In this document: positions 1,326 to 44,170 of the stretch, one piece after another | Layout of the letters: each line of letters begins with the position of its first letter | Position numbering within the stretch: the stretch's first letter is position 1 | IMG/VR virus record: IMGVR_UViG_3300023176_007781 | Location: 1-64,000 of that record | Reading direction: 5' to 3' (one strand) | Length of the DNA stretch: 64,000 nt | Source: a virus | Translations under genes and position numbers: made by a program | Notes under the pieces: model-generated | What the model saw: the letters and a program-made list of their open reading frames with translations, nothing else | What the model was told of the DNA's origin: nothing | Database searches by the model: none

Positions 1326-2624
1326 CTACAATATTGTTGAAGCTACACTGGCCAAATCAGACCTTTGCCCTTTTGACAAATTAACGTGCGCGGCAAGTGT
1401 GCTATCTTGAAATTTATCTATAACTATGCTCAAACCAGAACTTTGTCGATCAATATATGGTGTGTCGATTTGGTCGATGTCACCCAGTAATACTATTTTA
1501 GAACCTGTACCCATCCGTGTGATGATAGTCTTTAATTCATGTATTGTAGCGTTCTGTGCTTCATCTACTATCATGAAACTATTATTAAATGTTCTACCAC
1601 GTATGTAAGGAATAGGAGCAACCTCAATAACACCAGAAGCCATCTGCATTTTAAAAAAACTAGTGTCTTTAAAAGCAACTCGTACGTTATCTAAGATAGG
1701 CATCATCCATGGGGCCATTTTTTCATCCATAGAACCAGGCAAATAACCTAAATCTTTTCCTACTGGTTGTAATGTTCTCGTAACTAACAATCTTTCATAA
1801 TCACCCGATTTTCCATCTTTTACGCCTAACATACCAGCCATCAATGCTAAAAATGTTTTACCAGAACCAGCTAACCCAGTTAATGTCACTAGTGGTATTT
1901 GAGGATCAAGCAGGGCTTCTATAGCAAATCTTTGTTCAGAATTTCTTGGTTCAACTTGTATTAAAGAATCCATTTTGTATTTTAATCTATTTACTTGGCC
2001 TTTTTTATATATGCCTAACATTGAGTTTTGAGATGATGTGCCAACGACAAAATGGTTTTCGTTTAGCTTGTGTTCTGTTTCAATATGACCTTGTTTATAA
2101 AACTGATCTATTTGCTCACATGTCAAGTCTATGCTATTAAAGCCTTTAAATGTATCGACGTCAGTTGAAATTCTATCTTTTACGTAATCAGCAACATCAA
2201 CACCTACGGCATCGCATTTTACACGAAGATTAATATCTTTAGTGATAACTCTTATAACATCATTGGTTGCACTATGCAGTTTTAGAAACAAAGCACAACC
2301 AATTATAACATTGTCATTATAACCATAGTCAAAACCTTCAGGTACTTGATCATGTATTTTTGGGTCTGTTTCAAACTTAAACCAAATATCATGCACTTCA
2401 TCTATCTTCCATCCTGTGCCATTTTTGGGTGCATGTCTCATTTGATCTAAAAATCTATTTACATATCTAGCATTATCACCAACTAGGCCTCTTCTGTCTT
2501 TAAACTTATCTAACTCTTCTAAAACAACTAATGGCAAAACAATATTGTTCCCAATAAAAGCGTGGATTGATTGCTTGTCATACAACATTACTGATGTATC
2601 TAATATAAAAGTTTTTCTTGTCAT
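1326..2624 (-). CDS. phoH: PhoH-family ATPase with N-terminal PIN domain
   Basis: A 432-residue protein. Residues 1-150 form a PIN-like nuclease domain (start TFILDTSVMLYD, with conserved acidic residues). Residues 210-430 form the PhoH P-loop domain, with Walker A GLAGSGKT near residue 250 and Walker B MIVDEAQNAT. PIN-PhoH (PhoH2-type) proteins are RNA helicase/nuclease-like ATPases. PhoH genes are very common in marine phages, where their role is unresolved. The start follows an AAAGG ribosome site. The gene is divergent from the sigma-like gene across a short A+T-rich promoter region. The family call is secure; the physiological role is not. Confidence 0.93.
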   Translation of the reverse strand: MTRKTFILDTSVMLYDKQSIHAFIGNNIVLPLVVLEELDKFKDRRGLVGDNARYVNRFLDQMRHAPKNGTGWKIDEVHDIWFKFETDPKIHDQVPEGFDYGYNDNVIIGCALFLKLHSATNDVIRVITKDINLRVKCDAVGVDVADYVKDRISTDVDTFKGFNSIDLTCEQIDQFYKQGHIETEHKLNENHFVVGTSSQNSMLGIYKKGQVNRLKYKMDSLIQVEPRNSEQRFAIEALLDPQIPLVTLTGLAGSGKTFLALMAGMLGVKDGKSGDYERLLVTRTLQPVGKDLGYLPGSMDEKMAPWMMPILDNVRVAFKDTSFFKMQMASGVIEVAPIPYIRGRTFNNSFMIVDEAQNATIHELKTIITRMGTGSKIVLLGDIDQIDTPYIDRQSSGLSIVIDKFQDSTLAAHVNLSKGQRSDLASVASTIL

Positions 2625-4270: not shown

Positions 4271-5494
4271 TCAAGCAAAATTAACAACACCACCAATAGT
4301 TTTTAATGTTTCAGTTAAGTTTTTAGCTACCTGTGCGCACACGTCATGCCATTTTTTAGGTATTACAATATTTTCACACTTAATAAAGCCTCCGCATGCT
4401 CCACTAACATAATATTTTACGGCCCAGTCGACTTCTTCTTTTATTAATGTGTCACTATTCCTTAATCTTATTTCACAAAGCTCATTAGCTAAATTCGATA
4501 CTCTCTCCGCATATACTTGTTGTAATGTTTCTTCTGCGCTTAACATTTTATTTATAAGTGATTTTTTATGCGCAGATATATCTTTATCAGTGTTTAGGAC
4601 TATGTTTTTATTATATATTTGTACTTTGTTAACAAAACCATACCGTTCTTCTTCATTACATGCAATAGCTATCACGTCGCCAAACTGACAGTTAATACTC
4701 ATTCCTCCAGTAATTTTAATTAAGTCTACTAACGCATTGATATTTTTGTATGATGTACCGTATTGCAATGGTACAACATTTAACTTTCTTTTAAGCCAGT
4801 TAGTACCCAGCGTAGCAATTAATTCTTCTGGGAAGCTTCTGCATATTAACAACCAATTTTGCTGAGTTTCATTTGCCTTAGTTAGAAATGTATTTATTTC
4901 GCTTACACTTGCTATGGCACCTTCAATTAAAAGTATACTAACATCATTTAAAACAATGTTGTTTGTACCTATCATTTTCGAAAAATTCTTGTCTATTACT
5001 AAATCTGACCTGTATCCATTTTTTAATTCAATTACGTTTTCACTAGAATTGCTATCTATAACAGATATATGAGTTGTCGGACTTATATTGTCAAAAACAT
5101 TTTCAACTATAGTAGCTGCTTCTGCAGACACGTGTCTTTTAATATTTTTTATTATTTCTTTTGTTCCTAATCTAAAATCAGATTCTCTTTTTATTTTATT
5201 TGCTAAATAATAAAAAAGTAAAGATGAGCTGCCAGGTTCATATTTTTCAATAGCTTGACACGCATCTAATATTATCTTGGATATTTCATTATCAACTTCA
5301 TTCTTCTCTAAAGATAAAAACCATCTAGATGCACTTGATACACCCAGATGGTAAATATTTGACTTAATCAAACCTTTTTTATTATGCCACATGTCCGCAG
5401 TAGAAACCACGTGTGATATAACACTTTGTGACAGATTTTCAACCTTTAAGAACTTTGTCTTCTGATACTTTTTTGCTTTGTTTTTCATTTTCAA
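4271..5494 (-). CDS. divergent, shortened GroEL-like chaperonin
   Basis: A 407-residue protein that matches the GroEL order of segments. Residues 60-100 resemble the equatorial nucleotide loop, where GroEL DGTTT (from D87) reads PGSSS here. Residues 157-230 resemble the apical start (LKNGYRSDLVIDKNFS, like GroEL RGYLSPYFIN). Residues 235-300 carry an ITGGMSI segment like GroEL LTGGTVI. Residues 328-372 resemble GroEL ERVAKLAGG through GVVAGGG, with an Asp at about 356 in the place of D398. It is about 140 residues shorter than GroEL and lacks the C-terminal equatorial part. Some large phages encode GroEL. With D87 lost, ATPase activity is doubtful. It overlaps the membrane gene upstream by 56 bp. 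Confidence 0.75.
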   Translation of the reverse strand: MKMKNKAKKYQKTKFLKVENLSQSVISHVVSTADMWHNKKGLIKSNIYHLGVSSASRWFLSLEKNEVDNEISKIILDACQAIEKYEPGSSSLLFYYLANKIKRESDFRLGTKEIIKNIKRHVSAEAATIVENVFDNISPTTHISVIDSNSSENVIELKNGYRSDLVIDKNFSKMIGTNNIVLNDVSILLIEGAIASVSEINTFLTKANETQQNWLLICRSFPEELIATLGTNWLKRKLNVVPLQYGTSYKNINALVDLIKITGGMSINCQFGDVIAIACNEEERYGFVNKVQIYNKNIVLNTDKDISAHKKSLINKMLSAEETLQQVYAERVSNLANELCEIRLRNSDTLIKEEVDWAVKYYVSGACGGFIKCENIVIPKKWHDVCAQVAKNLTETLKTIGGVVNFA

Positions 5495-7231: not shown

Positions 7232-7339
7232 TTATTTGTATTCATTAAACATTTCATAAAATATATAACCAAATATTAAGGCTATAGGAAATGTATATAT
7301 TAATAAACACAAATAATATACTAGATTAGCTAGTATCAT
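7232..7339 (-). CDS. 35-aa single-pass membrane peptide
   Basis: Start ATG at 7339 shares an ATGA with the prkA stop, and the frame runs 35 codons to TAA at 7232. The peptide is almost entirely hydrophobic (ILANLVYYLCLLIYTFPIAL, then IFGYIFYEMF) with a short polar end, so one membrane helix is expected. Translational coupling to prkA supports it as a real gene. Function unknown; it could anchor the kinase system to the membrane. Confidence 0.5.
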   Translation of the reverse strand: MILANLVYYLCLLIYTFPIALIFGYIFYEMFNEYK

Positions 7340-9258
7340 GAATCTCTCCAAAGGTTATTAGATGCATAAGTTAAAATTTCTTCAGCTGAAGTTTCATTGT
7401 AACCATATTCATCTATTAGTGTTTTTACCATATCAGAATATTTTGCTTTTTGTTCATCATCTCTGGTTTTAGACTTTGTAACAATTCTAGCCATATCTTT
7501 TACTGAATTAATTAGGTAACTCTCAATTGCTTCTTTCAAAGGTTCATAGCTTTTATAATCTACTTTTTCGCCACGTCTCATTCTCGAGAACATATAAGCT
7601 GTCACATCAGATCTAAAGCCCTGTCTAGAACTACCACTAATACCGATAACTTCTTCTATAGACTTCATAAATTGCTCATCAGCTGATCTTTCTTCTTTAG
7701 TTACTTTGTCTTTAAGTTTTGTTTTAGTAGTATAAGCTTCAGCATTATCTAAATACGTATCAAATAATGACTGTGCTTGTTCTTCATATGCTGTAATAAA
7801 TGCTTTAGCAATCTCAGTCTCAAGTATTTTAAGATATTCTTCGCGTACAGTTTTTTGTATAATCTCCAAACACTTTTCTCTAAAATCAGCATTAACTATT
7901 TGTTCTTTCACCATCTTGGTCACGGAATTAATAACACCCACCGGAGTAATACATTCATTTTCACTGTCACACAAAGCATTGTCAATAGCTTTCATGATAA
8001 ACCTTGTACTAATACCAGTCATGCCTTCATCACGTGATTCTTCTCGCAAATCTTTTATGTCTATTTTTTTAACTCGACCTTTTTCAATTACGTCTTCCCC
8101 ATTATAAATTTTCATCTTTGTAAGCAAATCACACTTAGCAGATTCTTTAAGTCTACTCATAACAGAGAACATACTTGCAACCTTGATTGTATGTGGTGCA
8201 ATATGAGCATCAAAATCTGATTTTGCTAAAATCTTTTCATAAATTCTGGATTCTTGATCTAATTCTAAAACATATGGGACATTAATCTTAACTACTCTGT
8301 CGAGGATTGCTTCGTTTGTGTGTTCTGATTTAAATCTATTCCATTCAGACTCGTTACAATGTGCCAAAATAACACCATCGAAAAACACCATATCATGCTT
8401 ACCAGGAGCAGGTACTCGTTTTTCTTGAGTTGCTGTAATAATCGTGTGAAGAAATTCAATTTCATTTTTAAACACCTCTATCAACTCAACGATACCCCTG
8501 TTACCAACATTAAATGCGCCAGTAAGATTTAAAACACGGGGATCATCTTCACTAAATTTATCTAACTTACTTATATCTTCTGAACCAATAAGCACAGAAA
8601 CATCTTGACTATTAGCATCCATAGGTGGCACAGAAGCAATTCCACGACGTCCCCTTTGCGAAAAAGTACTTTTGACTACAGGGAAATTTTCATATTTACC
8701 ATCATGCTCTTCTAACAATTTATACCGAGCTATTGGCGATAAATCACCTTCAATCTTAACATCTAACATTTTTTCAAAGTCTTCTCTCAAAGATCTAGGC
8801 AACAGTTGCAATGGTTCTCCACGTTGAGGATCATCTTTTAAGTGATAATAAGGTTTGTCTTCTAATGCTGCTTTAATATGTTCCGTCAATGCTGATTTAC
8901 CAGCACCAACTGGTCCCATTAAAAGCAACACTTGTCTAGATTCTTCACCTCTAAGTGCAGCTCCTTTTAAAAACCTCATAAGCTTTTCTATTACTCTTTC
9001 ATTGCCATAGAAATGATCTTTGAAATAATCATAAATTTTAATGTTATCACCATTAAATATTTTATGCTTTCTGTCGTCATCAGCTGATATTGTGTTAATA
9101 CCTTTTTCACATATCGCATTATACAATCTCTTGTGCGCATGTTGTGCTATGGACGGATCGCTTTCTAGTTCTTTCAGATAATCTAAAAAAGTACCTTCAA
9201 ACTTATCAGACTTTTTGTCTTTTCTTTGTTTCTCAATAATTTCTAAATATTTTGACAT
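7336..9258 (-). CDS. prkA: PrkA-type serine protein kinase (YeaG family)
   Basis: A 640-residue protein, the normal length of PrkA/YeaG. The AAA-like N-terminal domain carries Walker A GPVGAGKS (115-122) with the family's LLLMGPVGAGKS context, the DPR..LTGAFN region and AHCNESEWNRFK. The C-terminal third is the PrkA kinase-like domain (GISTRFIMKAIDNAL, QGFRSDVTAYMFSRM). In bacteria prkA/yeaG, yeaH/yhbH and spoVR/ycgB act together in sporulation or starvation responses. All three partners lie in this operon (gene order yeaH, small gene, spoVR, prkA). The ribosome site is GGAGAATAACAAT-ATG. Family identification is very secure; role in infection is unknown. Confidence 0.95.
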   Translation of the reverse strand: MSKYLEIIEKQRKDKKSDKFEGTFLDYLKELESDPSIAQHAHKRLYNAICEKGINTISADDDRKHKIFNGDNIKIYDYFKDHFYGNERVIEKLMRFLKGAALRGEESRQVLLLMGPVGAGKSALTEHIKAALEDKPYYHLKDDPQRGEPLQLLPRSLREDFEKMLDVKIEGDLSPIARYKLLEEHDGKYENFPVVKSTFSQRGRRGIASVPPMDANSQDVSVLIGSEDISKLDKFSEDDPRVLNLTGAFNVGNRGIVELIEVFKNEIEFLHTIITATQEKRVPAPGKHDMVFFDGVILAHCNESEWNRFKSEHTNEAILDRVVKINVPYVLELDQESRIYEKILAKSDFDAHIAPHTIKVASMFSVMSRLKESAKCDLLTKMKIYNGEDVIEKGRVKKIDIKDLREESRDEGMTGISTRFIMKAIDNALCDSENECITPVGVINSVTKMVKEQIVNADFREKCLEIIQKTVREEYLKILETEIAKAFITAYEEQAQSLFDTYLDNAEAYTTKTKLKDKVTKEERSADEQFMKSIEEVIGISGSSRQGFRSDVTAYMFSRMRRGEKVDYKSYEPLKEAIESYLINSVKDMARIVTKSKTRDDEQKAKYSDMVKTLIDEYGYNETSAEEILTYASNNLWRDS

Positions 9259-9274
9259 ATTGTTATTCTCCTAA

Positions 9275-10564
9275 CTAAACTTCATAAGGTGCATTGTCTA
9301 TCATTGTAATTAGTGAAACATCATTTCCCCACAATTCTTGTATATGTCCAACAACTGCAGAAGCATGATTTAGATCCAATTCTCTATGATCATGCTCATG
9401 ATGTAAAATTAAATTTTTGTTTTTTTCTACTTCCTGAATGTATATGACGGGAATTTGATTGCCAGCTATTTGTTGCAACAGGCTGTTTTTGATTGTTTTC
9501 CAACCTTCTTCATCAGATACATCGCCAACATATAAGTCATCGCCTTGTTTCTTTATAGAAAATAGATTGAGTTCTTCGCAATCTTCTTGCGTTAAATATT
9601 GCCTAACAAATGATTCATCGTTATGCGCTTCTCTTGCTATAAAACACTCTTCTAAACCATGTCTTTCATGTATTTTATTAAATAAATGAAACCCTAAATT
9701 GTAAGGATTTATTCCGCCTATGTGCGGCCTTACAACTTGGTTGTGAGATTTAAGAAAAGGTAAGTGATATTCTTGTGGCAAATCTAAATCATGTAGTATT
9801 TTGTAGTGCCAAAAACATGCCCATCCTTCATTCATAATCTTTGTTCTAATTTGTGGCATAAAATAATAAGCTTCATCTCTTACTATTTCTATAATATCTT
9901 TTTTCCAATCTTCTTTTATTTCACCGAAACTAGAAATAAAACCCATTATGTCATATATTTTTTCATGTGGTAGTTGCTCTATATCAACATTTTTATTGTT
10001 TTTATTTTCTATCTGCCAAGCATTATAATCTTCACTAATAACTGATATTTTGCTAGGATGTCTCGGGATTTGATATGAAATAGCATGACATGCATCAATT
10101 ACTCTTTCTACTTTTTCAATTCCTATACTCGGATCTTCAATGTATGACTGTATTCTCTTTTTTGCATTACGCATTCTAGGTACAACTGTATCAGCCCTTG
10201 TATATTTGAACATTCTGTTATTTTTAAAAAAATCAGAGTGACCTACACAATGTGCCATTATTAATATTTGCAAATAAAGTGGATTTTCTAACATTAAGTA
10301 TGATATACATGGGTCACTATTAATGATTAACTCATAGGGAAGACCAGTCATCCCATGCTGATATTGACTATGTTGTAACTCAAATGATTTACCATAAGAC
10401 CAATGACCATAATGTGTAGGCATACCATGATATGACATATTTCCTAACATTTCATAGTAATCACATGTTTCATATGTTATAGGATACCAATCTAAATTAT
10501 GCTTCTTTGCAATATCACATATTTTTTCATCCCACTCTTCTAAATCTTGTAATGTCCAACTCAT
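9275..10564 (-). CDS. spoVR: SpoVR family protein
   Basis: A 429-residue protein from the ATG at 10564, which overlaps the upstream stop by ATGA; a longer reading to 10594 is unlikely. SpoVR hallmarks are present in order: HYGHWSYGKSFE, LPYELIINSDPCISYLMLEN, AHCVGHSDFFKNN, GWACFWHYKILHDL and NPYNLGFHLF. The family is named for spore cortex formation in Bacillus and is also found as YcgB in E. coli. Molecular activity is unknown. It lies between the small GDLV gene and prkA in one operon. Complete and apparently intact. Confidence 0.95.
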   Translation of the reverse strand: MSWTLQDLEEWDEKICDIAKKHNLDWYPITYETCDYYEMLGNMSYHGMPTHYGHWSYGKSFELQHSQYQHGMTGLPYELIINSDPCISYLMLENPLYLQILIMAHCVGHSDFFKNNRMFKYTRADTVVPRMRNAKKRIQSYIEDPSIGIEKVERVIDACHAISYQIPRHPSKISVISEDYNAWQIENKNNKNVDIEQLPHEKIYDIMGFISSFGEIKEDWKKDIIEIVRDEAYYFMPQIRTKIMNEGWACFWHYKILHDLDLPQEYHLPFLKSHNQVVRPHIGGINPYNLGFHLFNKIHERHGLEECFIAREAHNDESFVRQYLTQEDCEELNLFSIKKQGDDLYVGDVSDEEGWKTIKNSLLQQIAGNQIPVIYIQEVEKNKNLILHHEHDHRELDLNHASAVVGHIQELWGNDVSLITMIDNAPYEV

Positions 10565-10884
10565 AACACTTTCCTTAAATTGTTGAAAGAACAAACATGC
10601 AACTCTTTGCCAAATAACACATTTGCAAAATCTTCACAATCATTAATATAATCAATTAAATAATCACCTGGTTTTTCTAACTCCACCAATATCTCTGTAG
10701 AAATAATGTGTGATTGAAAACATTCGACAATTATACCGCCAAGTTTCTCAGTATCGTCTATCAAAACTGATGTTTCCGCGAGGTCATAATCGTTATTACC
10801 TGGATTGTAATTGCCATCTTTGTCTGGTATGGATTTAAATATTTCCCATGTGTAATTAACTAAATCTCCAGGTTTAAATGACAT
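10561..10884 (-). CDS. small GDLV-type (SH3/KOW-like) protein
   Basis: A 107-residue protein from the ATG at 10884, which has GGAGG 5 bp upstream and lies within the yeaH end (11-nt overlap). It opens SFKPGDLVNYTWEIF, then has GGIIVECF and a second strand-rich part. The P-G-D-L-V opening followed by G-I-I-V is typical of small SH3/KOW-like beta barrels, and recurs in at least five other small genes of this window. It is coupled to spoVR by ATGA. Function unknown. Confidence 0.65.
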   Translation of the reverse strand: MSFKPGDLVNYTWEIFKSIPDKDGNYNPGNNDYDLAETSVLIDDTEKLGGIIVECFQSHIISTEILVELEKPGDYLIDYINDCEDFANVLFGKELHVCSFNNLRKVL

Positions 10885-12058
10885 CAATACCTCCAAAAAA
10901 TCCTGTAAAAGCTGGCCAAACATCATTTTTTGATTCTATATGCGATATTTTCATTTTCTCATCTTGCAAATGAGCTAAAGTATTTGAAAGAGACGCAGAA
11001 TCTAACCATAACGATTTTTCATTGTCAGGCACTATTTCACAGTATCCTACAAATTGGCACTTTTCTTTTAATTTTTGCATGCATGTTAATACTTTTTCAT
11101 TATCATTACCCCAATTGTCACCATCACTGCAATGAAATGTATACAAATTCCAACTATCAGAATTGTATCTAGATTCTATTGCATCGCAAACGTATTCGTA
11201 AGCTGGACTTACAATTGTTCCGCCACCGGAGCCTCTCTTAAAAAATTTGTCTTCATCAACTTCATATGGTTTAGTATCATGAGCAATAAATATTATCTCT
11301 GTTTGTTCATATTTTGATCTGATAAAGTGATAAAGTAAGAAAAAGAATGATCTAGCTAAATACTTTTTATTAGTACTCATAGATCCACTAACATCCATTA
11401 CGAAAAATATACAAGCATTACTAGCGTATTTATTTTTCTTACTAATATGTTTATATCTTAAATCAGCATCGTGGTATGAAAACGACTCATCACTTTCAGG
11501 GTCATATGTACCTGATCTAATTGCTGCGTTCTTTCTTTTTATGCGTCTTTTCGCTGTTTCTTTTTTACTTAATCTGGGTCTTATACCAGAATTCCTGTAA
11601 CCTTTTCTTTTAAACCCAGATGAAATAATTTTTTTAAGATTTTTCTTTTGCAAGTCAGGCAAATTTAAATCAGCAAATAAGTAATCAGCCAACTCTTCTA
11701 AAGTTATTTCAACGTCATAATATTCTTCGCCAGCTTTATCTCCTGCCTTATTATCTTTGCCTTTTTTACCTTTTTTTTGACCTTGTGAAATTTTTTGTCC
11801 ACGCTTTACGTCTAAATCACCGCCTTCACCGACTTTTTGTGAGTTTTTTTGATTTGCTCCATAAACAAATTTGTATTCTTTTATACCCCTTACTGGTATA
11901 CGAATTTTTTTCTTTCCATCCTGACCTATTATACTTTCTTCTGCTACAATATTGTGTATGCCATCTTTTATTGCTTTTTCTATTTTTTGCTTATGTCGTC
12001 TTTTGTCGGAAGCAGATCTATCTGCTGTTGTTCTGTGATGACTAAAAACTGAGCTCAT
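10874..12058 (-). CDS. yeaH: YeaH/YhbH family VWA protein
   Basis: A 394-residue protein of the usual length of YeaH/YhbH (UPF0229). The diagnostic N-terminus TADRSASDKRRHKQKIEKAI and AEESIIG are present. A basic linker follows, then a VWA domain with MIDAS-type DVSGSM near residue 223 and FIAHDTKPYEVDEDKFF followed by SGGGTIVSPAYE. YhbH functions with PrkA in Bacillus, and YeaG/YeaH in E. coli nitrogen starvation. It is the first gene of the operon (ribosome site GGAG before 12058) with the small GDLV gene, spoVR and prkA behind it. Confidence 0.94.
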   Translation of the reverse strand: MSSVFSHHRTTADRSASDKRRHKQKIEKAIKDGIHNIVAEESIIGQDGKKKIRIPVRGIKEYKFVYGANQKNSQKVGEGGDLDVKRGQKISQGQKKGKKGKDNKAGDKAGEEYYDVEITLEELADYLFADLNLPDLQKKNLKKIISSGFKRKGYRNSGIRPRLSKKETAKRRIKRKNAAIRSGTYDPESDESFSYHDADLRYKHISKKNKYASNACIFFVMDVSGSMSTNKKYLARSFFFLLYHFIRSKYEQTEIIFIAHDTKPYEVDEDKFFKRGSGGGTIVSPAYEYVCDAIESRYNSDSWNLYTFHCSDGDNWGNDNEKVLTCMQKLKEKCQFVGYCEIVPDNEKSLWLDSASLSNTLAHLQDEKMKISHIESKNDVWPAFTGFFGGIDVI

Positions 12059-12389: not shown

Positions 12390-12809
12390 TTATCTCAAGT
12401 TTGATAATTTTTTATTACATATCCTAATTATGGGTTTGAGATAATTATAACAATCTTTTTCTAATTCTTCTGGTGTTAACCACTTATAACCTTGATGTTC
12501 TATTTCTTTAGTAACAGGGTTTCTTTTTATTTTACATGTCACAAAAGGCTCTGCAAAGCAAATAAATAACGTAAGATTTTTATGTATAATTGGGCCATAT
12601 TGTATATCACTTTGGTCGAACCAAATGCCAGCTTCTTCTAAGCATTCTCTTTTAGCACATTCCCAAACAGACTCGCCACCATCCACATGACCTTTTGGCA
12701 GATCATATATACCTTTTTTGTCTTTGATAATATTATCAGGTCCTATCAGACCTAAAACTAATGGTTTATCATTTTTAAACTTAACAACATATATGCCTGC
12801 ACCAGTCAT
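12390..12809 (-). CDS. Nudix hydrolase
   Basis: A 139-residue protein with a full Nudix box (residues 40-62: GHVDGGESVWECAKRE followed by CLEEAGI), matching G-x5-E-x7-R-E-U-x-E-E-x-G-U. Family members hydrolyse nucleoside diphosphate derivatives such as sugar nucleotides, Ap4A, oxidised nucleotides or mRNA caps. The DLPKGHVDGGES context is common in Ap4A and sugar-nucleotide hydrolases. Its place upstream of a leader gene and downstream of sugar-related genes fits sugar-nucleotide metabolism, but the substrate cannot be read from sequence. The ribosome site is AGAGGAATA-ATG. Confidence 0.9.
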   Translation of the reverse strand: MTGAGIYVVKFKNDKPLVLGLIGPDNIIKDKKGIYDLPKGHVDGGESVWECAKRECLEEAGIWFDQSDIQYGPIIHKNLTLFICFAEPFVTCKIKRNPVTKEIEHQGYKWLTPEELEKDCYNYLKPIIRICNKKLSNLR

Positions 12810-13723: not shown

Positions 13724-15349
13724 TCACTTTAAAATTGCTTTTCGAAAATCAACTGGGAATATATCTTTATTCCTACCATAAAATTTGTTCCAATCACTGT
13801 CTAAAATATATGTTACTGCTTTGTCATCAGATGATCTAATACTTCTACCTACAGATTGTATGATTACTTTTACCGTTTGTAAAGGATACCACCATGACCA
13901 TTTATGCATGCGTTTCTTTACTAGTTTATCACCTAAATAAGGGTAAGGCACTTTACACAATATTTGAAATTCACTAGCTTTTCCTTTTAAATCAACACCT
14001 TCTTGCATCGATGGAGACAATAAAACAGTTGGTGCTTTCTCAAAAATATGTCTGTTTAAAACCTTTTCTCTATCCTCAGCAGTATGTGTTAATAGTCTTT
14101 TTGTTTTTAACTTTTCCTTGAGATACTTAGCTATCTTATAATTGTGACAGTGAATTATGCCTTTTTGATTTTTATGATTTTGTAATATTGTTTGAATTGC
14201 TACTGCCATTCTAGGTAGAGACGCATCAATATTATTTAAACTCATTGAACCAACACCACTAAACAATATTGGTCTATTTTCTACTGGGAAAGGACTAGGC
14301 ACAGAAATAAATGCACATTCTTCTTTTTTAATTCCTAAAACTTCACAAAAAGCATCTTTGTTTATAATAGTTGCAGACATCATTAGTATTTTATCAGCTT
14401 TTGAAAATAAAACTTCGTTAGTGTAAGGACTTACATCAATAGGTTTAAATTCCCACTTAGTATAATTTTTCCTATCAGTTTTTACAATATTCATAATCCA
14501 GTTGTCTTTATTGTATATAGTAAAAAACTTCTGTATTTTTTGCAAATGGCCATCAACCATTTTCCACTTTTTTTCTAACATGACAAATTCCGTTATACGA
14601 TCTTTTATACCAGTCGACTCAATCATTTTTTCCATTTTGTTCCGAGTTTTTACTAGTGCTGGAAGATAATTTTCTTTAATCCATTTCAAAACTTGGAACT
14701 GGGTTTTTAATTCAGGCACTTTTAACTTTAATATTTTTTCAGCAAAATATTGCGTAAAAGTCATTTCTACAAACTTGCTTAACTCAGTTTCAACGTTATG
14801 ACATTCATCAATAACCATTATTTGTTTATTAGAAAGCTTGCCACTATAATTCTTTTCAGTTAAAAAATAAGAAAAATTTGTGACACCATTATTACTTTCA
14901 TCAAACTCTTTCTTAGCATTAGAATAATTACAGTTAATGGCACAGCACATTTTAAAACTATCGTCTTTAGATACCTTTAGTTCAGGCAAAGACTCTGCAC
15001 AAGTTTGATTTGTATAATATTTACAACGATAATTTGAAGCTGATTGTAAAGACTTCATTTTTACATAATCTACGGTAGCAAAATCTTTGATATACTGTTG
15101 TTGCAATACTTTTTGCGTAGTAAGATAGTAAGCGCCTTTTTTATTCATTGTCTCATCTGTTAAATGATCAATAAGATAATTGGCTACTGTAACGCCAATA
15201 GCAGATTTACCAATACCAGTACCAGCTTCTACTATGACAAACTTTTTATTATTTTGCAAAAAATTATGTAACGCAAAATTTATAATATTCCTTTGCTGTT
15301 CCCTGACAGTGTCATACGGGAAATATTTTTTAATATCGTAATTATTCAT
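13724..15349 (-). CDS. DinG/XPD-like superfamily 2 helicase
   Basis: A 541-residue helicase. Q-motif region REQQ, Walker A EAGTGIGKS (41-49), motif II DECH near residue 186 (VIDECHNVE), motif III MMSATI, and motif VI QSVGRSIRS near the C-terminus. Between motifs I and II four or more cysteines (YRCKYY, QTCAES, MCCAINC) fit the 4Fe-4S domain of the Rad3/XPD/DinG family, which unwinds 5'-3'. Shorter than E. coli DinG but similar to phage and archaeal XPD-like enzymes. Likely role in replication or repair. The start overlaps the preceding gene by 8 nt. Confidence 0.9.
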   Translation of the reverse strand: MNNYDIKKYFPYDTVREQQRNIINFALHNFLQNNKKFVIVEAGTGIGKSAIGVTVANYLIDHLTDETMNKKGAYYLTTQKVLQQQYIKDFATVDYVKMKSLQSASNYRCKYYTNQTCAESLPELKVSKDDSFKMCCAINCNYSNAKKEFDESNNGVTNFSYFLTEKNYSGKLSNKQIMVIDECHNVETELSKFVEMTFTQYFAEKILKLKVPELKTQFQVLKWIKENYLPALVKTRNKMEKMIESTGIKDRITEFVMLEKKWKMVDGHLQKIQKFFTIYNKDNWIMNIVKTDRKNYTKWEFKPIDVSPYTNEVLFSKADKILMMSATIINKDAFCEVLGIKKEECAFISVPSPFPVENRPILFSGVGSMSLNNIDASLPRMAVAIQTILQNHKNQKGIIHCHNYKIAKYLKEKLKTKRLLTHTAEDREKVLNRHIFEKAPTVLLSPSMQEGVDLKGKASEFQILCKVPYPYLGDKLVKKRMHKWSWWYPLQTVKVIIQSVGRSIRSSDDKAVTYILDSDWNKFYGRNKDIFPVDFRKAILK

Positions 15350-15632
15350 TATCGAATTCTCCTATAAGTGTGTAATTTATTATGTCTGCACGAAATATAA
15401 TGTGATAAAAACACGATTCATTAACGCAAAAAACTGTTGATTGAAAAACGTCTTCGTTCAATATATCTCCCATAAACTTAGTTTCTAAAAAAAGTATTAA
15501 TTTATGTTCACCAAACCCAAGTGATGTATCAAAAAAATAAGAATTGTCCATTACAAAAGTATTATCTAGTGTTGCGGTTGATTCTATTGTTGAAAAATCA
15601 ATACGACATAGGTCTCCTTCTTTAAACATCAA
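15342..15632 (-). CDS. small GDL-type protein
   Basis: A 96-residue protein opening MFKEGDLCRIDF, a variant of the G-D-L-V opening of small SH3/KOW-like proteins in this window, followed by strand-rich sequence. Not otherwise recognised. It overlaps both neighbours by a few nucleotides (ATGA-type coupling), so it belongs to the helicase operon. Confidence 0.55.
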   Translation of the reverse strand: MMFKEGDLCRIDFSTIESTATLDNTFVMDNSYFFDTSLGFGEHKLILFLETKFMGDILNEDVFQSTVFCVNESCFYHIIFRADIINYTLIGEFDNE

Positions 15633-15934
15633 TCATCTATCTGGGTGACAAAGTCATATAATACACTTGCGCAATCAACTATTTCTTTTGCATCTGGCAA
15701 TTTTTTATATTCTTTATTTATCTCCCAGTGCATCTGAATGTTACTATATAGTATTTCTTTTGCTTGAGTAATAAGCTGTATTTTTAAATCTCTATTGGAT
15801 GCAATTTTTTCTATATCCTCTCTTTTAATTAAACCCAAACTATCTAAAACATCATCTGTCAGCTCAAGTTGCATTTCACCTGCTTGTGTATTTTCAGATT
15901 CTGTTATTGTGCCTGTTTCATTTTCACTACTCAT
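15629..15934 (-). CDS. hypothetical acidic protein
   Basis: A 101-residue protein from the ATG at 15934 (GGAGG 6 bp upstream), preferred over an upstream in-frame ATG. It opens with a low-complexity acidic region (SSENETGTITESENTQAGE), followed by a helical part containing LKIQLITQAKEILYSNIQMH. No family recognised. It overlaps the phosphomannomutase end by 8 nt. Confidence 0.55.
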   Translation of the reverse strand: MSSENETGTITESENTQAGEMQLELTDDVLDSLGLIKREDIEKIASNRDLKIQLITQAKEILYSNIQMHWEINKEYKKLPDAKEIVDCASVLYDFVTQIDD

Positions 15935-16739
15935 CTTTACCTCCAATAATTTGTTCAATAATGTATGTTGTTTCAAAATAATTTCTTACTTTGTATGATT
16001 TTCCATTCTCTAATTTTTTACATGCGTCATAAATTTCTTTATCATTGCCATTGTCTTCACAACGGTCGCCCATAAAGATAATCTCTTCGTACTTAATATC
16101 ACTGTTTAATTGATCATTTAAAGCGTAAGTTTTATCCCATCCCGTAGGGAATATATCAAAACTAGTATCACCACCTAACTTTACTGTGACACCTTTAAAT
16201 AAATCTTTATAGTTTTTATCGATGTATTCTAAAATACTCATTCTTATGTTATACTTTTTATCAACTGCAACAAATCTCTCTCTATCATTACTATCAGCAT
16301 TTCTACCTATAGGTGACCAGTTTATCATAGATCCGCGCGAGACAATAAACGTAGAAGTCAACAATATTCCATCAGTACCTTCTAATCTTAATAAATAACT
16401 TTGACAGTCAAATATTGCTTTAATCATATCGCTGTATCTTCCTCTTCCAACATGATGACACAAACTATGAGTATACTCGCAAGAAAACCTACCATTTGAA
16501 AAATTATATTTTTTCGTGCCATTGCAAGGATAGTATAGAATAGCTGTTGGATCAACAGGACTACCTATATCAAAAATTGGATCACATTGTTGCTCTATGT
16601 AATTTAAGTCGGAACCAGTCACAATAGCTATTTTATAACCGCTTTTTTGTAAGTTACCTAGCGCTGTCATCATTGACAAAGATATTTGTTTTCTAGCATC
16701 AGTTAATGTGCCATCCATATCAAACATAACTAATTTCAT
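15927..16739 (-). CDS. eukaryotic-type phosphomannomutase (HAD family)
   Basis: A 270-residue HAD hydrolase-fold enzyme. The catalytic D7-M-D9-G-T leads into LTDARKQISLSM. The downstream signatures follow those of eukaryotic PMM1/PMM2: IVTGSDLNYIEQQ, MINWSPIGRNADSNDRERF, GGDTSFDIFPTGWDK and MGDRCEDNGND. Eukaryotic PMM interconverts mannose-6-phosphate and mannose-1-phosphate for GDP-mannose. Most bacteria use an unrelated enzyme (ManB/AlgC), so this type is notable. It fits the nearby cupin and the fucosyltransferase-like gene at 30 kb. It is the first gene of the run down to 12.1 kb. Confidence 0.88.
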   Translation of the reverse strand: MKLVMFDMDGTLTDARKQISLSMMTALGNLQKSGYKIAIVTGSDLNYIEQQCDPIFDIGSPVDPTAILYYPCNGTKKYNFSNGRFSCEYTHSLCHHVGRGRYSDMIKAIFDCQSYLLRLEGTDGILLTSTFIVSRGSMINWSPIGRNADSNDRERFVAVDKKYNIRMSILEYIDKNYKDLFKGVTVKLGGDTSFDIFPTGWDKTYALNDQLNSDIKYEEIIFMGDRCEDNGNDKEIYDACKKLENGKSYKVRNYFETTYIIEQIIGGKDE

Positions 16740-16794: not shown

Positions 16795-17504
16795 ATGATT
16801 AGCGTTAATAAAATATTAAATAACATACTATTGTTCATAATTTTTTTAGTTTGTGTTTCAAGTTGCATGTCATGTAACGTGAAAAAAATCAGTAATAAAA
16901 AAGAGATTAAATTCGGTAGAGTTAACGAAACTACTGTGTTAATACAAACTACATTAATGTCAGCTGACTTAAGTGAAGAAGAGTTTCTCGAGGTACAGGT
17001 GTCATTATAAGTGATAAATACATATTAACTGCTGCTCATGTTTGTGAACCATGGAAATATATGGTTGATATTGAAAAAAGATATGCTAGTATGACTATTG
17101 CAATTGATGTTTATGGCAACTATTGGACCGGTGAACCTATAAGTATAGATCACTTTTATGATATTTGTTTATTTGAAAGTGATTACAATCTAGGTATAAA
17201 ACCTTCAAAGCTTTCTAAAAAAGAACCAAATAGATCTGACTTATATTATTATATAGGATATCCTTTAGGCATAAAAGGCAAAAATCTATCTAACAAACTG
17301 TTCGGTTATTATGCTGGTGAGTTAGATAATACATATTCAATATTTAATATACCTGCTGTTGGAGGATCATCTGGTGGTCCTATATATGACAACAAAGGAG
17401 ATTTTGTAGGTCTTCTAATAGCTACATATCCAGAATTTAACAATATGTCAATATCTATACAACACAAATATATCAAAAGATTTATAAAAGAAAGCGTCCC
17501 TTAG
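16795..17504 (+). pseudogene. trypsin-like lipoprotein protease interrupted by a frameshift
   Basis: The first frame (16795-17010) encodes a signal peptide with lipobox-like VSSC and then about 45 residues. The protease continues in the -1 frame: SRGTGVIIS, YILTAAHVC (catalytic His), HFYDICLFE (catalytic Asp) and AVGGSSGGPIYD (catalytic Ser), ending at 17504. The two frames overlap only between about 16977 and 17007. Adding one T to the TTT at 16984-16986 would restore E-F-S-R-G-T-G. So this is a real frameshift, a -1 slippage site or an assembly indel. All three catalytic residues survive. As drawn it would be a periplasmic outer- or inner-membrane lipoprotein protease. Confidence 0.75.
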
Positions 17505-17583: not shown

Positions 17584-18990
17584 TTATTCTTTCATTTCTA
17601 TTAAGAAGTCTCTGTTCTTCTTTTTGAAAGCAAGTTTTCCGTCTGGTACAATAACCCAGCCTACCTTAAGGTTTGATTTAACTTGTGGTTTAGAAGCATA
17701 ACCATCTGTTAATATAAGTATACCATCATACTTAGATTTGTTTAAATTAGCATGCTTAATAACGCAAGTAAAACATGTGCCACCGCATCTGGTACGCTTA
17801 ATATCAATACGCTTACCTTTTTTGTATTCTTGTTCAGAGTCGACATCTACTTCAGTATCAAAGTTGTACATAGTAAATGTTACTCTTTTAGCAAGATTTT
17901 GAAGTTCGCCTGAAAGTAATTCTAAGTCACTATCTGAAACGGAACCAGACTGGTCTACGTATACAGCAATATTAGATTTGTAATCACGAAAAGCTCCTGG
18001 GTGTATTCCAGGATACTTGCGATGTATGCGTCTAATAGATGATGCTCTATCAGCACGTCTAGACATTCCACAAAATTGCTTAAGCACTGATTGCCAAGGG
18101 ATTTCACGTGAAACCAAGCTACGTAAAGTAGAGCGCATCGATGCACTAATGTTACCCCACTTATTTGTTCTATCACATTCCTTAATAGACTTTTCAAGTG
18201 CGACCTTAATCTTACCTTCCATTTTTTGACGTTCTTCATCAGACATACTATCCCAACCTTCATGGCTATCCATAGAACCTTCGCCACCTTCTCCGGGAAC
18301 AACTGTAACTGGATTACCATCTTGGTCAACGAGGTTGCCATCTTCGTCTATTTTGACAGTGCCATCTGCTAAAGCATCTTGCAAAGATTTTCCTTGCATT
18401 TTTTGCGCAGATTCTATAGCCTCTTTGACTTCAGGGTCTTCCATAAGTCTAGAGAAATACCATTCAGCATTTTTGTTTTTAGGAAAAGAAGCAATTTTGT
18501 TAGATATCATTTCATATCTATCAGCAGCTTGTTGACCCATTTGTTCAACTTGCTCTGCAGTAAGAGGTTTAAATTTTTTACTAGGTATTAAACCACCTTC
18601 CGGTAATTCATCTTCTGGTATCATACTATTAATAGCTAAATCAGTAGCATAATTCCAAACTATATGTGGGTCAAATCTACGTGTTGTAGTGTGACTGAAG
18701 ATTAAGTGCATTGCTTCATGCTTAAGCAAGCCAAAAACTTCTTTTTTGCTTAAACCAGCGAGAAACTTTCTATTCCACATCATGTGTATTTCACTGTCTT
18801 TGACATACACACCCGCAGTAGGAATTTTAGTAGTTTCAGACTTGTTAATTTGTCTGATAATGTGCGCATAAAAAGGCTCATTCCACATGAGAGAAATTAA
18901 ATAATAGTCTAGATTGAAGTTATCCATTTGTTCTTGAGTAACTTCTTTAGAAATAAGAGATTTGTTTGTTTCAACAGTGTTTGCAGACAT
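17584..18990 (-). CDS. metallopeptidase-VWA protein, MoxR partner
   Basis: A 468-residue protein. The N-terminal half is a predicted metallopeptidase domain with HEAMH (91-95) in LLKHEAMHLIFSH and a nearby NYATDLAINSMI. The middle is acidic/Gly-rich. The C-terminal VWA-like domain has a MIDAS-like DQSGSVSDSD near residue 345 and GGTCFTCV. Such proteins are encoded beside MoxR ATPases, and here the MoxR gene lies 310 bp upstream. The pair probably works as a RavA-ViaA-like chaperone. The promoter element TTATATTAC occurs twice just upstream. Confidence 0.9.
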   Translation of the reverse strand: MSANTVETNKSLISKEVTQEQMDNFNLDYYLISLMWNEPFYAHIIRQINKSETTKIPTAGVYVKDSEIHMMWNRKFLAGLSKKEVFGLLKHEAMHLIFSHTTTRRFDPHIVWNYATDLAINSMIPEDELPEGGLIPSKKFKPLTAEQVEQMGQQAADRYEMISNKIASFPKNKNAEWYFSRLMEDPEVKEAIESAQKMQGKSLQDALADGTVKIDEDGNLVDQDGNPVTVVPGEGGEGSMDSHEGWDSMSDEERQKMEGKIKVALEKSIKECDRTNKWGNISASMRSTLRSLVSREIPWQSVLKQFCGMSRRADRASSIRRIHRKYPGIHPGAFRDYKSNIAVYVDQSGSVSDSDLELLSGELQNLAKRVTFTMYNFDTEVDVDSEQEYKKGKRIDIKRTRCGGTCFTCVIKHANLNKSKYDGILILTDGYASKPQVKSNLKVGWVIVPDGKLAFKKKNRDFLIEMKE

Positions 18991-19301: not shown

Positions 19302-20399
19302 TTATTTCAAGTTTCTAGAAGTTTGTACAATCTTAGTTACTTTTGCACCAATAAGCTTGTGAATAGCACTAATATTTTTTAGATTACCAGAAGATGAAAT
19401 ATTACCCCAAAGTGTAACAGTAAGCTCGTCTGAAATAACTTCAGAGAAGGCTGCTACATTAGCTGCTTCAGATGCATCCCAGTCGTTATCCATGCAATGT
19501 TCCTTAAGTTTGTCACATATACCAATAATAATGCCAGTTGAAACACCTTCTAGTTTAGTTAAATCATACCCAGCTAGAATGTCTTCAGCAGTAATATTTG
19601 CTTCAGCATTTTTGACAAAAGTGTTAAATGCAATACCAGCTTCTACACCTACCATACCAATTAATAAAGTGTATACATAATCAGGCATTTCCTTACCAGC
19701 ATAGCTGCTAGGATTGACACCCATATGCTTAAGACAGGTATCAACTCTGTGCCAAGAAGCAGGGTTTGGACAAACAGTTCCAGGTTCAACAGTTGATGGA
19801 TCGACTCTAAGATGAACAGGGTTTTGTTGAATAAATTCTACTAACAATTTATCTATAGAATTATTCTTAGCCCAAGAAACCCAATCTTGTGTACTAGGTT
19901 CAAGATTAACTGCCCAAAAACGACGAAGAAGTGCAGGGTCCATTTCGTTGACATCATACTCTGAACCAACATTTACCGCAGCAAATATTCTTGTATTTGG
20001 ATGCAATTTATATGGAGCACCGTTTTTGTCGTTACCAAGAGCTCTATCTAAAACTAATTGGAAGAATGATTGTTGAACGCCAGGAAGAGAACGATTAAGC
20101 TCATCTAGCATTACAACACATGGCTCAGAACAAGCACGAATAAACCAAGAAGGCATGCAGAAAGTCATGACACCGGTTTCCTTCATACTTTCAATATCTG
20201 GATAACCACCTACATCACCTTCAGACATAGTAGAACCAAAGACAGGGATAAATGGTAAATCTAAATCCTCAGCAACTTGTTTAGCTAAAAAAGATTTACC
20301 GATACCAGTAGGACCTTGCATTAAGACAGCAATTTCTGGTGGCAACTTAGATGCAACAGCAAGAAATGAAGAGATTGTTGTAGTTGTTTTTGTAGACAT
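19302..20399 (-). CDS. MoxR-family AAA+ ATPase
   Basis: A 365-residue AAA+ protein. Walker A is GPTGIGKS (29-36), Walker B VVMLDELNRS near residue 95, sensor-1 RIFAAVNVG near 140, followed by MDPALLRRFW with an arginine finger. MoxR ATPases act as chaperones with VWA proteins, assembling metal centres or remodelling complexes. The VWA partner is the next larger gene downstream. The ribosome site is CGGAG. A TTATATTA element lies 47-54 bp upstream of the start. Confidence 0.93.
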   Translation of the reverse strand: MSTKTTTTISSFLAVASKLPPEIAVLMQGPTGIGKSFLAKQVAEDLDLPFIPVFGSTMSEGDVGGYPDIESMKETGVMTFCMPSWFIRACSEPCVVMLDELNRSLPGVQQSFFQLVLDRALGNDKNGAPYKLHPNTRIFAAVNVGSEYDVNEMDPALLRRFWAVNLEPSTQDWVSWAKNNSIDKLLVEFIQQNPVHLRVDPSTVEPGTVCPNPASWHRVDTCLKHMGVNPSSYAGKEMPDYVYTLLIGMVGVEAGIAFNTFVKNAEANITAEDILAGYDLTKLEGVSTGIIIGICDKLKEHCMDNDWDASEAANVAAFSEVISDELTVTLWGNISSSGNLKNISAIHKLIGAKVTKIVQTSRNLK

Positions 20400-26858: not shown

Positions 26859-27401
26859 TTAAGGAACGTAAAAATTTGGACCCATTAAAGAAAATGAAGG
26901 GTGCATTATGTGTCCGGCTTTTTTTACGTGCGCATAACCTAATGCATGTCCTAACTCATGTTCATTTAATAGATGTAATTTGTAATTTTCTTCTTTGTAA
27001 TATATTATTGATGAAATAATATTTAAAAAACTAGTTTGCCTTATTGTAGCAGCTAACGCTGTTTCATTTATATGAACATCTCTCTTTTTAACTTTTTTTA
27101 AAATTATAAAACCCGGGATATATTTTTTATCACACAAGTTTTTAGGAGGTCTGTGTTCATAAAAACCAAACTTTTCACCTTTTCTAGTCCAATACGTCAT
27201 TGCTCTTTTAATTGATTGCTCAGAAAATTCTTTGCCGTAACAGTTGACTATATTAGGTGGATTTTCCCAGCTGTACTGTTTAAAAGTATTTAATTCATAT
27301 ACTAATTTCATATTAAAACCAACAATCATACCCAAAACTAAAGACAAAAACAAAGCTGAAAAAATAACCACCATGTCTGTTTTTTCACTTTTTTCAATCA
27401 T
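26859..27401 (-). CDS. membrane-anchored matrixin-like metalloprotease
   Basis: A 180-residue protein from the ATG at 27401, which shares ATGA with the upstream stop. There is one N-terminal membrane segment (about residues 13-30) and then an extracytoplasmic domain. The metzincin zinc motif is NEHELGHALGYAH (HExxHxxGxxH) with a Met-turn-like HIMHP shortly after, as in matrixins. The last residues end FYVP with no further domain. Enzyme class is well supported by the motif. Target unknown; possibly host envelope proteins or other phage surface products. Confidence 0.82.
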   Translation of the reverse strand: MIEKSEKTDMVVIFSALFLSLVLGMIVGFNMKLVYELNTFKQYSWENPPNIVNCYGKEFSEQSIKRAMTYWTRKGEKFGFYEHRPPKNLCDKKYIPGFIILKKVKKRDVHINETALAATIRQTSFLNIISSIIYYKEENYKLHLLNEHELGHALGYAHVKKAGHIMHPSFSLMGPNFYVP

Positions 27402-28951
27402 TCTCCACACCCTCTGACAGCATATTTTACATTAATTGTTTGCCCTGGTTCCGGCACACTGTCTTCAAAAAATGAAACTTTGTTATCATCTTCAATGTAT
27501 TCCCAATCAGCACTTATCTGACCGTTGACTGTAACTTCTATTGTTTCAATTAAAACATCATTTTCACTAAGCGGAAAAAATCTAGAAGTACTTACTTCTT
27601 CAGCTAAATCTTGCAATTGCATCCCCCAATCTTCCGCACAAATAGAGTACCATTTTCCTCCGTAATGATTGATTAATTCATGGTAACCATAACCTGGTTG
27701 AGCAACGTTATAACCCCAACTACTAAGTTGGCACCCGTTAGGTATATCACCTATTACACCGTACGGTATAAAATCACCAGCTGGTTTCAAACTATCAAAA
27801 AATGTAGTATATGTTTGCCAACCATTGTACGACCAATCTTGCTCATCAGAAACATATATTACAACTAGTTTAGAATCTGTTCTAAAAAATGGGCTCCCGG
27901 GACCACTGTATAAACCATTAGACAATGACTGAAAAGACATTTCTATACCCTGTTCTATACCACTTCCGCCTATTCCTGGCATTAAAAGCTGTGCCAATAC
28001 ATTTGAAGCATTTGGAGTACTATTACTTACGATCGTAGTAAATGAAGGATCATCAGTTGTGATAACTGCTATGTGAAAATCAGCACCAACATTAAAAAAT
28101 GCATTTACGAAAACGCCAGTATTGTTAGCCAAATTAGTTTGAAAACGGTTCATTGAGCCTGAGTTATCAATTACCCACAATATATCTAAAACTGGTACCT
28201 CATCTTGGACCCAAGTTTCATCATACCATTGTTCAACTTCTCCATAACCCTTTTGAGTAATTTGGTATTCCGCTTTCTGTGGATCATTACTGGTAATTTT
28301 TATAATACTTTCATCATTACCAATATCGTTTGGTATATAAGAAACTAAAAAGTCTAACTGGTGCGTAGGTTGTATTACCCACGGCGTAGATGGCAATGTG
28401 CCATTTTCTAAAATTATATCCACTGGTGAATTTACTAATTGATCTAGATCTTCAATTATCAAATCTAGATTGCCACTATTTTCTATCGTTATACGTTCTT
28501 CAATATCACAGCCGATTGTGATGTCTCCCCAATCAATAGTTTCTGGCTCTATATTTAGCACTGGGGCGTCGCCGTAACCTTCAAGTGTAACTTCTACAGT
28601 GGTCGTTTCCTCATCGCTGCTGATTATTCTTACTATTCCTCCATTTGCTTCATAAGTTTCAGGCGTATAGTCAACTTTTAATTCCACTATTTCATCGATG
28701 CCTATAACAAGTGGTATATTTGTATCAATAGAGAATCTACTATTACCAGAAATTAACTCGGGGGACAAGATTTCTAAATCAGAGTCCCCCGAATTTATAA
28801 TATATATGTTTTCACTTGCGTTTTCATGCCCCGACAGCAAATGGCCAAAATCAATGTGCTGTGGATGAACTAATAATGTCGGTTGTTTTGGATCAGTTTT
28901 TATGACACCATAATCAACACAGCCTAACGCAAGAAATAACATACATAACAC
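27398..28951 (-). CDS. lipoprotein with ASH-like repeats and VWA domain
   Basis: A 517-residue protein. The signal peptide ends in lipobox LALGC (Cys11). Residues 30-240 hold two Ig-like repeats of ASH type (HIDFGHLLSGHENASENIYI and IDWGDITIGCDIEERITIEN). Residues 250-480 form a VWA domain with MIDAS VIDNSGSM and TTDDPSF. The C-terminal part is beta-rich. Similar ASH-VWA lipoproteins are typical of myxobacteria-like genomes, so host origin is plausible. The ribosome site is GGGAGG. It is the first gene of the secreted set. Probable role: surface binding or adhesion. Confidence 0.8.
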   Translation of the reverse strand: MLCMLFLALGCVDYGVIKTDPKQPTLLVHPQHIDFGHLLSGHENASENIYIINSGDSDLEILSPELISGNSRFSIDTNIPLVIGIDEIVELKVDYTPETYEANGGIVRIISSDEETTTVEVTLEGYGDAPVLNIEPETIDWGDITIGCDIEERITIENSGNLDLIIEDLDQLVNSPVDIILENGTLPSTPWVIQPTHQLDFLVSYIPNDIGNDESIIKITSNDPQKAEYQITQKGYGEVEQWYDETWVQDEVPVLDILWVIDNSGSMNRFQTNLANNTGVFVNAFFNVGADFHIAVITTDDPSFTTIVSNSTPNASNVLAQLLMPGIGGSGIEQGIEMSFQSLSNGLYSGPGSPFFRTDSKLVVIYVSDEQDWSYNGWQTYTTFFDSLKPAGDFIPYGVIGDIPNGCQLSSWGYNVAQPGYGYHELINHYGGKWYSICAEDWGMQLQDLAEEVSTSRFFPLSENDVLIETIEVTVNGQISADWEYIEDDNKVSFFEDSVPEPGQTINVKYAVRGCGE

Positions 28952-43822: not shown

Positions 43823-44170
43823 TGGTGGACCCGGCGAGAGTCGAACTCGCGTCCGCAATAGTCTTAGTTTAAGTCATTCACAACTATAGTTAATTATATC
43901 GTCAACTAACAAACTATCCACAACATTTTAAATCTTTTATGTGGCCTCCAGATTTAGACTTATTTTATTCTTCTGTCGTTGCTAAAGTCATCACGCAATA
44001 TATCCGTTATTGGACTGATGGTAAACGGAAACCACCCGATTAGGCTGCGATTGCTGCTGCTTCGAAATGCTTATTATTATTTGCAATTATTGTTTTTGAA
44101 CTGTTAAGGCCGAATCTCACCTAGTTGCACTCTCCCCTTGATTCTACCCCGTCGATACCATTACGGGCCC
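43823..44170 (-). ncRNA. ssrA: tmRNA
   Basis: A one-piece tmRNA of 348 nt on minus. The 5' end GGGCCCG can pair with CGGGTCC at the 3' end (7 bp, one G-U), giving a tRNA acceptor with encoded discriminator A and CCA. The T arm is GAGTTCGACTC, typical of tmRNA. The tag frame resumes at GCA (44082-44084) and reads ANNNKHFEAAAIAA followed by TAA (44040-44042). tmRNA frees stalled ribosomes with SmpB and tags products for proteolysis; no smpB gene is in this window. Phage tmRNAs are known but uncommon. The tag end AIAA differs from the usual ALAA. Confidence 0.93.

Follow-up and report, generated by a model that had tools for sequence, protein, structure and literature searches.

What would a virus gain from carrying prkA, spoVR and yeaH, three genes known from the starvation and sporulation physiology of bacteria? 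The question is raised by the virus record IMGVR_UViG_3300023176_007781 of IMG/VR, in which positions 1–64,000 of 91,208 bases (hereafter the window) were analysed. A sequence-only reading of the window had proposed that the trio, with two small accessory genes, serves the phage as a starvation-response module, perhaps controlling persistence in slow-growing hosts. Here the trio was found as an undivided block in this large phage and in dozens of relatives, which suggests one machine useful to the virus during infection. These phages are treated as a T4-type jumbo-phage clade, and their presumed marine character is taken from known relatives and a published oxygen-minimum-zone virome, not from sample metadata.

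An intact trio inherited as a block

The three genes lie on the minus strand in the order yeaH–spoVR–prkA. The gene yeaH (10,874–12,058) encodes a DUF444/YhbH-type VWA protein of 394 amino acids (aa) (Pfam DUF444/YeaH, 1e-107, 361 bits), and spoVR (9,275–10,564), whose open reading frame (ORF) opens at 10,594, most likely starts at the ATG at 10,564 to give 429 aa (Pfam SpoVR, 5.2e-120, together with SpoVR_C). The 640-aa product of prkA (7,336–9,258) comprises an AAA+ domain and the PrkA C-terminal domain (Pfam AAA_PrkA, 1.2e-136; PrkA, 9e-81). All frames are open, the Pfam families are matched over nearly the whole length, and the spacing is operon-like, with 16 nt between spoVR and prkA and a 121-aa ORF overlapping both yeaH and spoVR, so that the intact operon described earlier is confirmed. 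In two relatives, yeaH is split into two ORFs (L035, 8,821–10,011; L055, 8,807–9,994) by a frameshift that is either real or an assembly error.

To avoid conditioning on the trio, an alignment-based scan was anchored on an independent DNA helicase gene (13,724–15,349, minus strand; phrog_2488, 7e-114), and those loci followed by 8 kb or more of sequence on the downstream side were retained (n = 71). All three genes occurred in 42 of these loci and none in 29, while partial sets were never encountered (0/71). When the 29 trio-negative contigs were searched along their whole length, SpoVR and PrkA were both found in the same two and neither in the other 27, which include contigs of 309, 202 and 187 kb; the contigs are virus records that may be fragments, and the absence of the trio is thus a lower-confidence statement, with three of them exceeding 180 kb. 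An empty site was recognized in five phages, where the series helicase–(NUDIX)–chaperonin–g3455–PhoH is kept and the trio is missing between helicase/NUDIX and chaperonin; the NUDIX gene is retained in four of the five. Pairwise distances of the three proteins intercorrelate (rho 0.58–0.65), and they also correlate with those of PhoH (rho 0.58–0.68). Since the three genes are present or absent together, they act as a unit, as the sequence-only reading had supposed, and this gain or loss of a block of about 4.5 kb is strong genetic evidence for one machine.

A genuine phage locus

Further copies were collected from IMG/VR, keeping the best 80 of 133 stretches for SpoVR and the best 80 of 147 for PrkA. 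Among the 78 newly fetched PrkA-anchored loci, 75 had enough upstream DNA to be tested, and every one of these (75/75, from the best 80 of 147) displayed the order yeaH–spoVR–prkA. Two other metagenome contigs match at 100% identity. A terminase search of ten records gave matches in eight, all of them long relatives of 134–361 kb, the 361-kb one scoring below the family cut-off; no match was obtained for the 91-kb record that contains the window or for another of 127 kb. One large terminase subunit (TerL) of the long relatives is closest to those of T4-type phages of Flavobacterium, Microcystis and Synechococcus.

The same genes in the phage order were also seen on three contigs of bacterial metagenome-assembled genomes (MAGs), NHDW01000006.1, PBIO01000025.1 and PBNF01000027.1, from bins assigned to Methylococcaceae, Halobacteriovorax and Legionellales. 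Related stretches in bacterial MAGs would be expected if the locus were bacterial contamination or a chimaeric assembly; however, because the contigs have the phage gene order and neighbourhood they are most likely misbinned phage DNA. The taxa of the bins disagree, and no host is derived from them. With the same synteny in 75 of 75 viral contigs and TerL encoded by the long relatives, the chance of contamination is negligible. A junction break of the kind that would betray contamination was looked for through synteny, and the 100%-identity contigs and the uniform arrangement show instead a genuine phage feature. Relatives of the three genes also recur in other phages, including Thermus and huge phages. 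As regards the phyla of the first two MAGs, SpoVR occurs in 38 of 39 genomes of that of the Halobacteriovorax MAG, where it is nearly core, versus 34 of 150 of that of the Methylococcaceae MAG.

Protein families and signature residues

The two PrkA domains score 455.9 and 271.7 bits against a Pfam cut-off of 25, placing the protein in the PrkA family, and homology to the solved bacterial PrkA structures 9xip, 9xiq and 9xir extends over the full length (E 4e-91). In an alignment that took in E. coli, Thermomicrobium, Bacillus, Thermus-phage and huge-phage copies, the Walker A motif GPVGAGKS, sensor-1 N302, R321 and R419 of PrkA are invariant, gaps aside, across 82–84 copies, and the catalytic residues, flagged earlier as worth checking, are therefore kept. 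Under the same proviso, the metal-ion-dependent adhesion site (MIDAS; DxSxS...T...D) of YeaH, formed by D222, S224, S226, T281 and D312, and H64, H115, H119 and E256 of SpoVR are each invariant in about 84 copies. K423 of the window PrkA corresponds to K426 of E. coli YeaG, whose change to alanine was called catalytically deleterious by its authors (PMC10954441). Lysine occupies this position in 80 of 82 aligned copies, but asparagine or aspartate is present in those of Bacillus, Thermomicrobium and Thermus phages, and the residue therefore does not define the family.

The best NCBIfam match of YeaH is the Bacillus-type YhbH (TIGR02877) at 394 bits, below the cut-off of 468 bits; YeaH is therefore a member of the broader family and not an equivalog of Bacillus YhbH. 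SpoVR belongs to its family by 401 bits for SpoVR and 37.5 bits for SpoVR_C, with the HW..G, HxxGH and NEG motifs kept. Its AlphaFold2 model (predicted local distance difference test, pLDDT, 82; predicted template modelling score, pTM, 0.83) had no fold match in the PDB at E ≤ 0.001 and a single match in BFVD at that threshold, an unnamed viral protein. In the huge phage LR756504.1, the SpoVR ORF (14,468–16,375) is interrupted, precisely at its NEG|C core, by an intein-like insertion of about 130 aa with a weak Intein_splicing match (16.2 bits, below cut-off); as inteins favour active sites, the insertion hints at where SpoVR acts.

For all three proteins synonymous sites are saturated (proportion of synonymous differences 0.76–0.94) while the nonsynonymous proportion is only 0.14–0.25, indicating purifying selection. 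Another idea is that the phage genes disturb the trio of the host, as dominant-negative versions or decoys, or else a host defence. It is generally known that modified versions of host regulators are common in phages, yet retention of all three genes and of the tested residues is unexpected for a decoy, and the search for defence systems returned no convincing PADLOC match, the similarity of PrkA to DolB being weak (3e-5) and confined to part of the ATPase region. Interference of either kind is accordingly regarded as improbable.

Origin and probable repeated capture

Cellular loci for comparison were taken from two phyla and from plasmid records, and the genome scan for relatives reached only phage-like copies. 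Wherever the three genes occur together in the sampled cellular loci, the order is prkA–yeaH–spoVR (Pseudomonadota, Thermomicrobium, Sphingobium, Pontibacillus and the Halobacteriovorax phylum). The marine and Thermus phages have yeaH–spoVR–prkA, and the huge phage LR745206 has the cellular order. Maximum-likelihood trees of the three proteins placed the marine phages in one clade, the Thermus phages in another and the huge phages in two other places; these are quick trees with a single support measure and several long branches, and the LR756504 SpoVR row was left out of one of them. A single clade of marine and Thermus phages was rejected for PrkA by the approximately unbiased test (p 0.0066, with a simpler model and a reduced set). 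Because marine, Thermus and huge phages form separate clades, phages probably took up the trio several times. It is also possible that a cellular source with the phage gene order exists, since only some bacterial phyla were sampled. The most similar plasmid-borne PrkA copies among the matches listed are those of Bacillus licheniformis and Thermomicrobium. In Enterobacter phage LAU1 (MN688132.1, 1–3,308), the record opens with the first base of yeaG, whose product shares 97.7% identity with E. coli YeaG; yeaG and yeaH there probably belong to the host, from DNA bordering a prophage, and not to the phage.

The distribution of the trio bears on the published reading of spoVR, under which the trio would be a sporulation auxiliary metabolic gene (AMG) set that drives the host towards a state resembling a spore. 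SpoVR and PrkA do affect sporulation in Bacillus (PMC12456014, PMC13001217), and a study of an oxygen-minimum-zone virome ranked spoVR first in abundance among sporulation AMGs (PMC8940887). However, the trio is widespread in non-sporulating bacteria such as E. coli and the Halobacteriovorax phylum (38/39 genomes), and those parts of the window that were examined yielded no other sporulation gene. That the trio acts as an effector of dormancy or sporulation is thus very improbable; the all-or-none cassette speaks against calling viral spoVR a "sporulation" AMG, and the label is probably misleading for this trio.

Neighbouring genes

A NUDIX hydrolase gene (12,390–12,809, minus strand; Pfam NUDIX, 3e-12) is a frequent upstream neighbour and marks the upstream edge of the cassette, and a PhoH-like gene (1,326–2,624, minus strand; phrog_2765, 3.5e-95; Pfam PhoH, 3e-50) is a conserved downstream marker. 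Between PhoH and the trio lies another conserved neighbour, a divergent chaperonin with the GroEL intermediate and apical regions (4,271–5,494, minus strand), recognized by a PDB GroEL profile (E 5e-35) and by a Foldseek match to Hsp60 (E 3e-21). It is 15–31% identical to relatives in other phages and occurs in many members both with and without the trio. As trio-less phages keep it, the chaperonin was rejected as a fourth module member and is a phage-family gene outside the trio.

Two small minus-strand ORFs had been counted among the module parts by the sequence-only reading: the 121-aa "GDLV" ORF between yeaH and spoVR (10,561–10,926; no Pfam or PHROG match) and a hydrophobic ORF of 35–39 aa overlapping the end of prkA (7,232–7,351; no family match). 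Both occur only in the near-identical contigs L002, L003 and L246 and are missing from the other relatives scanned; they are therefore lineage-specific and lie outside the module, and that part of the proposal was not borne out.

The neighbourhood is also where a role in phage assembly has to be weighed, in which the trio would be an AAA+/VWA chaperone that matures or remodels a structural or replication protein of the phage and leaves host physiology aside. The trio of Thermus phage Lalka8 lies between portal/minor head genes and TerL, that of phiYS40 is close to TerL and the tail sheath, and the marine-phage trio adjoins the divergent chaperonin, with another AAA+/VWA pair encoded elsewhere in that genome. 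Within the marine clade, however, the trio sits among helicase, NUDIX and PhoH genes, and about 27 of the 71 close relatives do without it while comparable sites keep the chaperonin and the surrounding genes. Such a role is considered unlikely, though less so than sporulation or interference.

The second AAA+/VWA pair of the window, on the minus strand, consists of an AAA_5 ATPase and a DUF2201 putative metallopeptidase/VWA protein (17,584–18,990 and 19,302–20,399). The window also encodes a small trypsin-like peptidase (17,061–17,504, plus strand), a HYDIN/ASH Ig-like repeat protein (27,398–28,951, minus strand) and a one-piece transfer-messenger RNA (43,823–44,170, minus strand) with the tag ANNNKHFEAAAIAA. 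The late-promoter motif TATAAATA gave seven matches, fewer than the shuffle mean of 13.2, and was thus no guide to the timing of expression.

A proposed ATP-driven machine

The explanation preferred here is that the phage trio forms one ATP-driven machine that shifts the infected cell into a state of starvation or stress type; as a whole it is put forward tentatively, with a probability a little short of even. That the three genes make up one machine is well supported by their block inheritance. From the protein families, they may constitute a single physical complex that performs ATP-driven remodelling: PrkA would supply the AAA+ motor, the VWA (metal-dependent adhesion) protein YeaH would be its coupling subunit, and SpoVR would serve as a dedicated third component contacting or acting on the target. 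The strictly conserved H-x3-H and E residues of SpoVR would be compatible with a metal site. AAA+/VWA pairs are known to remodel dedicated partners, NorQ/NorD doing so for metal insertion (PMC13036017), and B. subtilis SpoVR cross-links to RNA (PMC12456014).

The whole trio would have been captured long ago by the marine T4-type jumbo-phage clade and kept as a single cassette. During infection it would most likely impose or prolong the starvation and stress-survival state known from its cellular owners, so that a slow-growing host would survive, spending little, for as long as a protracted infection lasts. Both this effect on the infected cell and its advantage to the virus are argued by analogy from E. 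coli and Bacillus phenotypes, as is the use in starvation response or persistence suggested earlier: when nitrogen is scarce, E. coli YeaG and YeaH jointly quiet metabolism, acting as a "metabolic brake" (PMC10954441).

Several points weigh against this explanation. The E. coli phenotype is that of yeaGH, and no evidence on the contribution of SpoVR was found in the literature searched. The biochemistry of PrkA is contradictory, the protein having been described as a kinase, a protease or neither (PMC13001217). PrkA scores 17.3 bits against the MoxR-type AAA_5 family, below the Pfam cut-off of 22, so the analogy to MoxR/VWA machines is one of function rather than of demonstrated kinship. Finally, about 27 of the 71 relatives apparently lack the trio. 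A more specific version holds that the three proteins are a minimal complete machine with no other cellular partner, whose AAA+/VWA motor loads or remodels a metal-site SpoVR of unsolved fold, and that its repeated capture by phages is explained by a rewiring of metabolism in starved, non-sporulating cells under infection; this is somewhat unlikely.

In cells the genes are sometimes unlinked, as with ycgB in E. coli, versus their block inheritance in the phage clade, and the cassette offers a natural minimal system to purify. The presence of the trio in cultured Thermus phages also makes its influence on infection accessible to experiment.

Comparison with known systems

The trio was already annotated in Thermus phage records, parts of it in a Ralstonia phage, and spoVR had been reported as a virome AMG; in the open-access literature no paper was found that treats the three genes as one phage module. 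What is new is that a marine T4-type jumbo-phage clade carries the complete trio as a cassette present or absent as a whole, together with the permuted order, the empty site and the separate phage clades.

The cellular prkA–yeaH–spoVR operon (yeaG/yeaH and ycgB in E. coli; prkA/yhbH and spoVR in Bacillus) comprises the same families at full length with the same motifs, whereas the phage order is permuted and the phage copies form their own monophyletic branch. The phage PrkA is about 30–39% identical to cellular copies, and the phage SpoVR has 429 aa compared with about 500 aa in most sampled Pseudomonadota. The cultured Thermus phages phiYS40, TMA, phiLo, MN1 and Lalka share the order yeaH–spoVR–(x)–prkA, annotated as "serine kinase" and "SpoVR", but fall in a separate clade in all three trees and have another genomic neighbourhood. 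Ralstonia phage RsoM2USA encodes SpoVR (ORF28) and PrkA (ORF30) (PMC8504454) and was not among the matches in the phage collection searched. The huge phages LR745206, LR756502, LR756504 and LR756511 carry PrkA/YeaH/SpoVR relatives; in three of them PrkA is 62–65% identical to E. coli YeaG. Huge-phage genes that are linked keep the cellular order, and these are regarded as separate captures. The MoxR AAA+/VWA machines NorQ/NorD, RavA/ViaA and CbbQ/CbbO likewise pair an AAA+ motor with a VWA partner and serve a dedicated target (PMC13036017, PMC9976466), whereas PrkA represents an AAA+ family of its own with the PrkA C-terminal domain.

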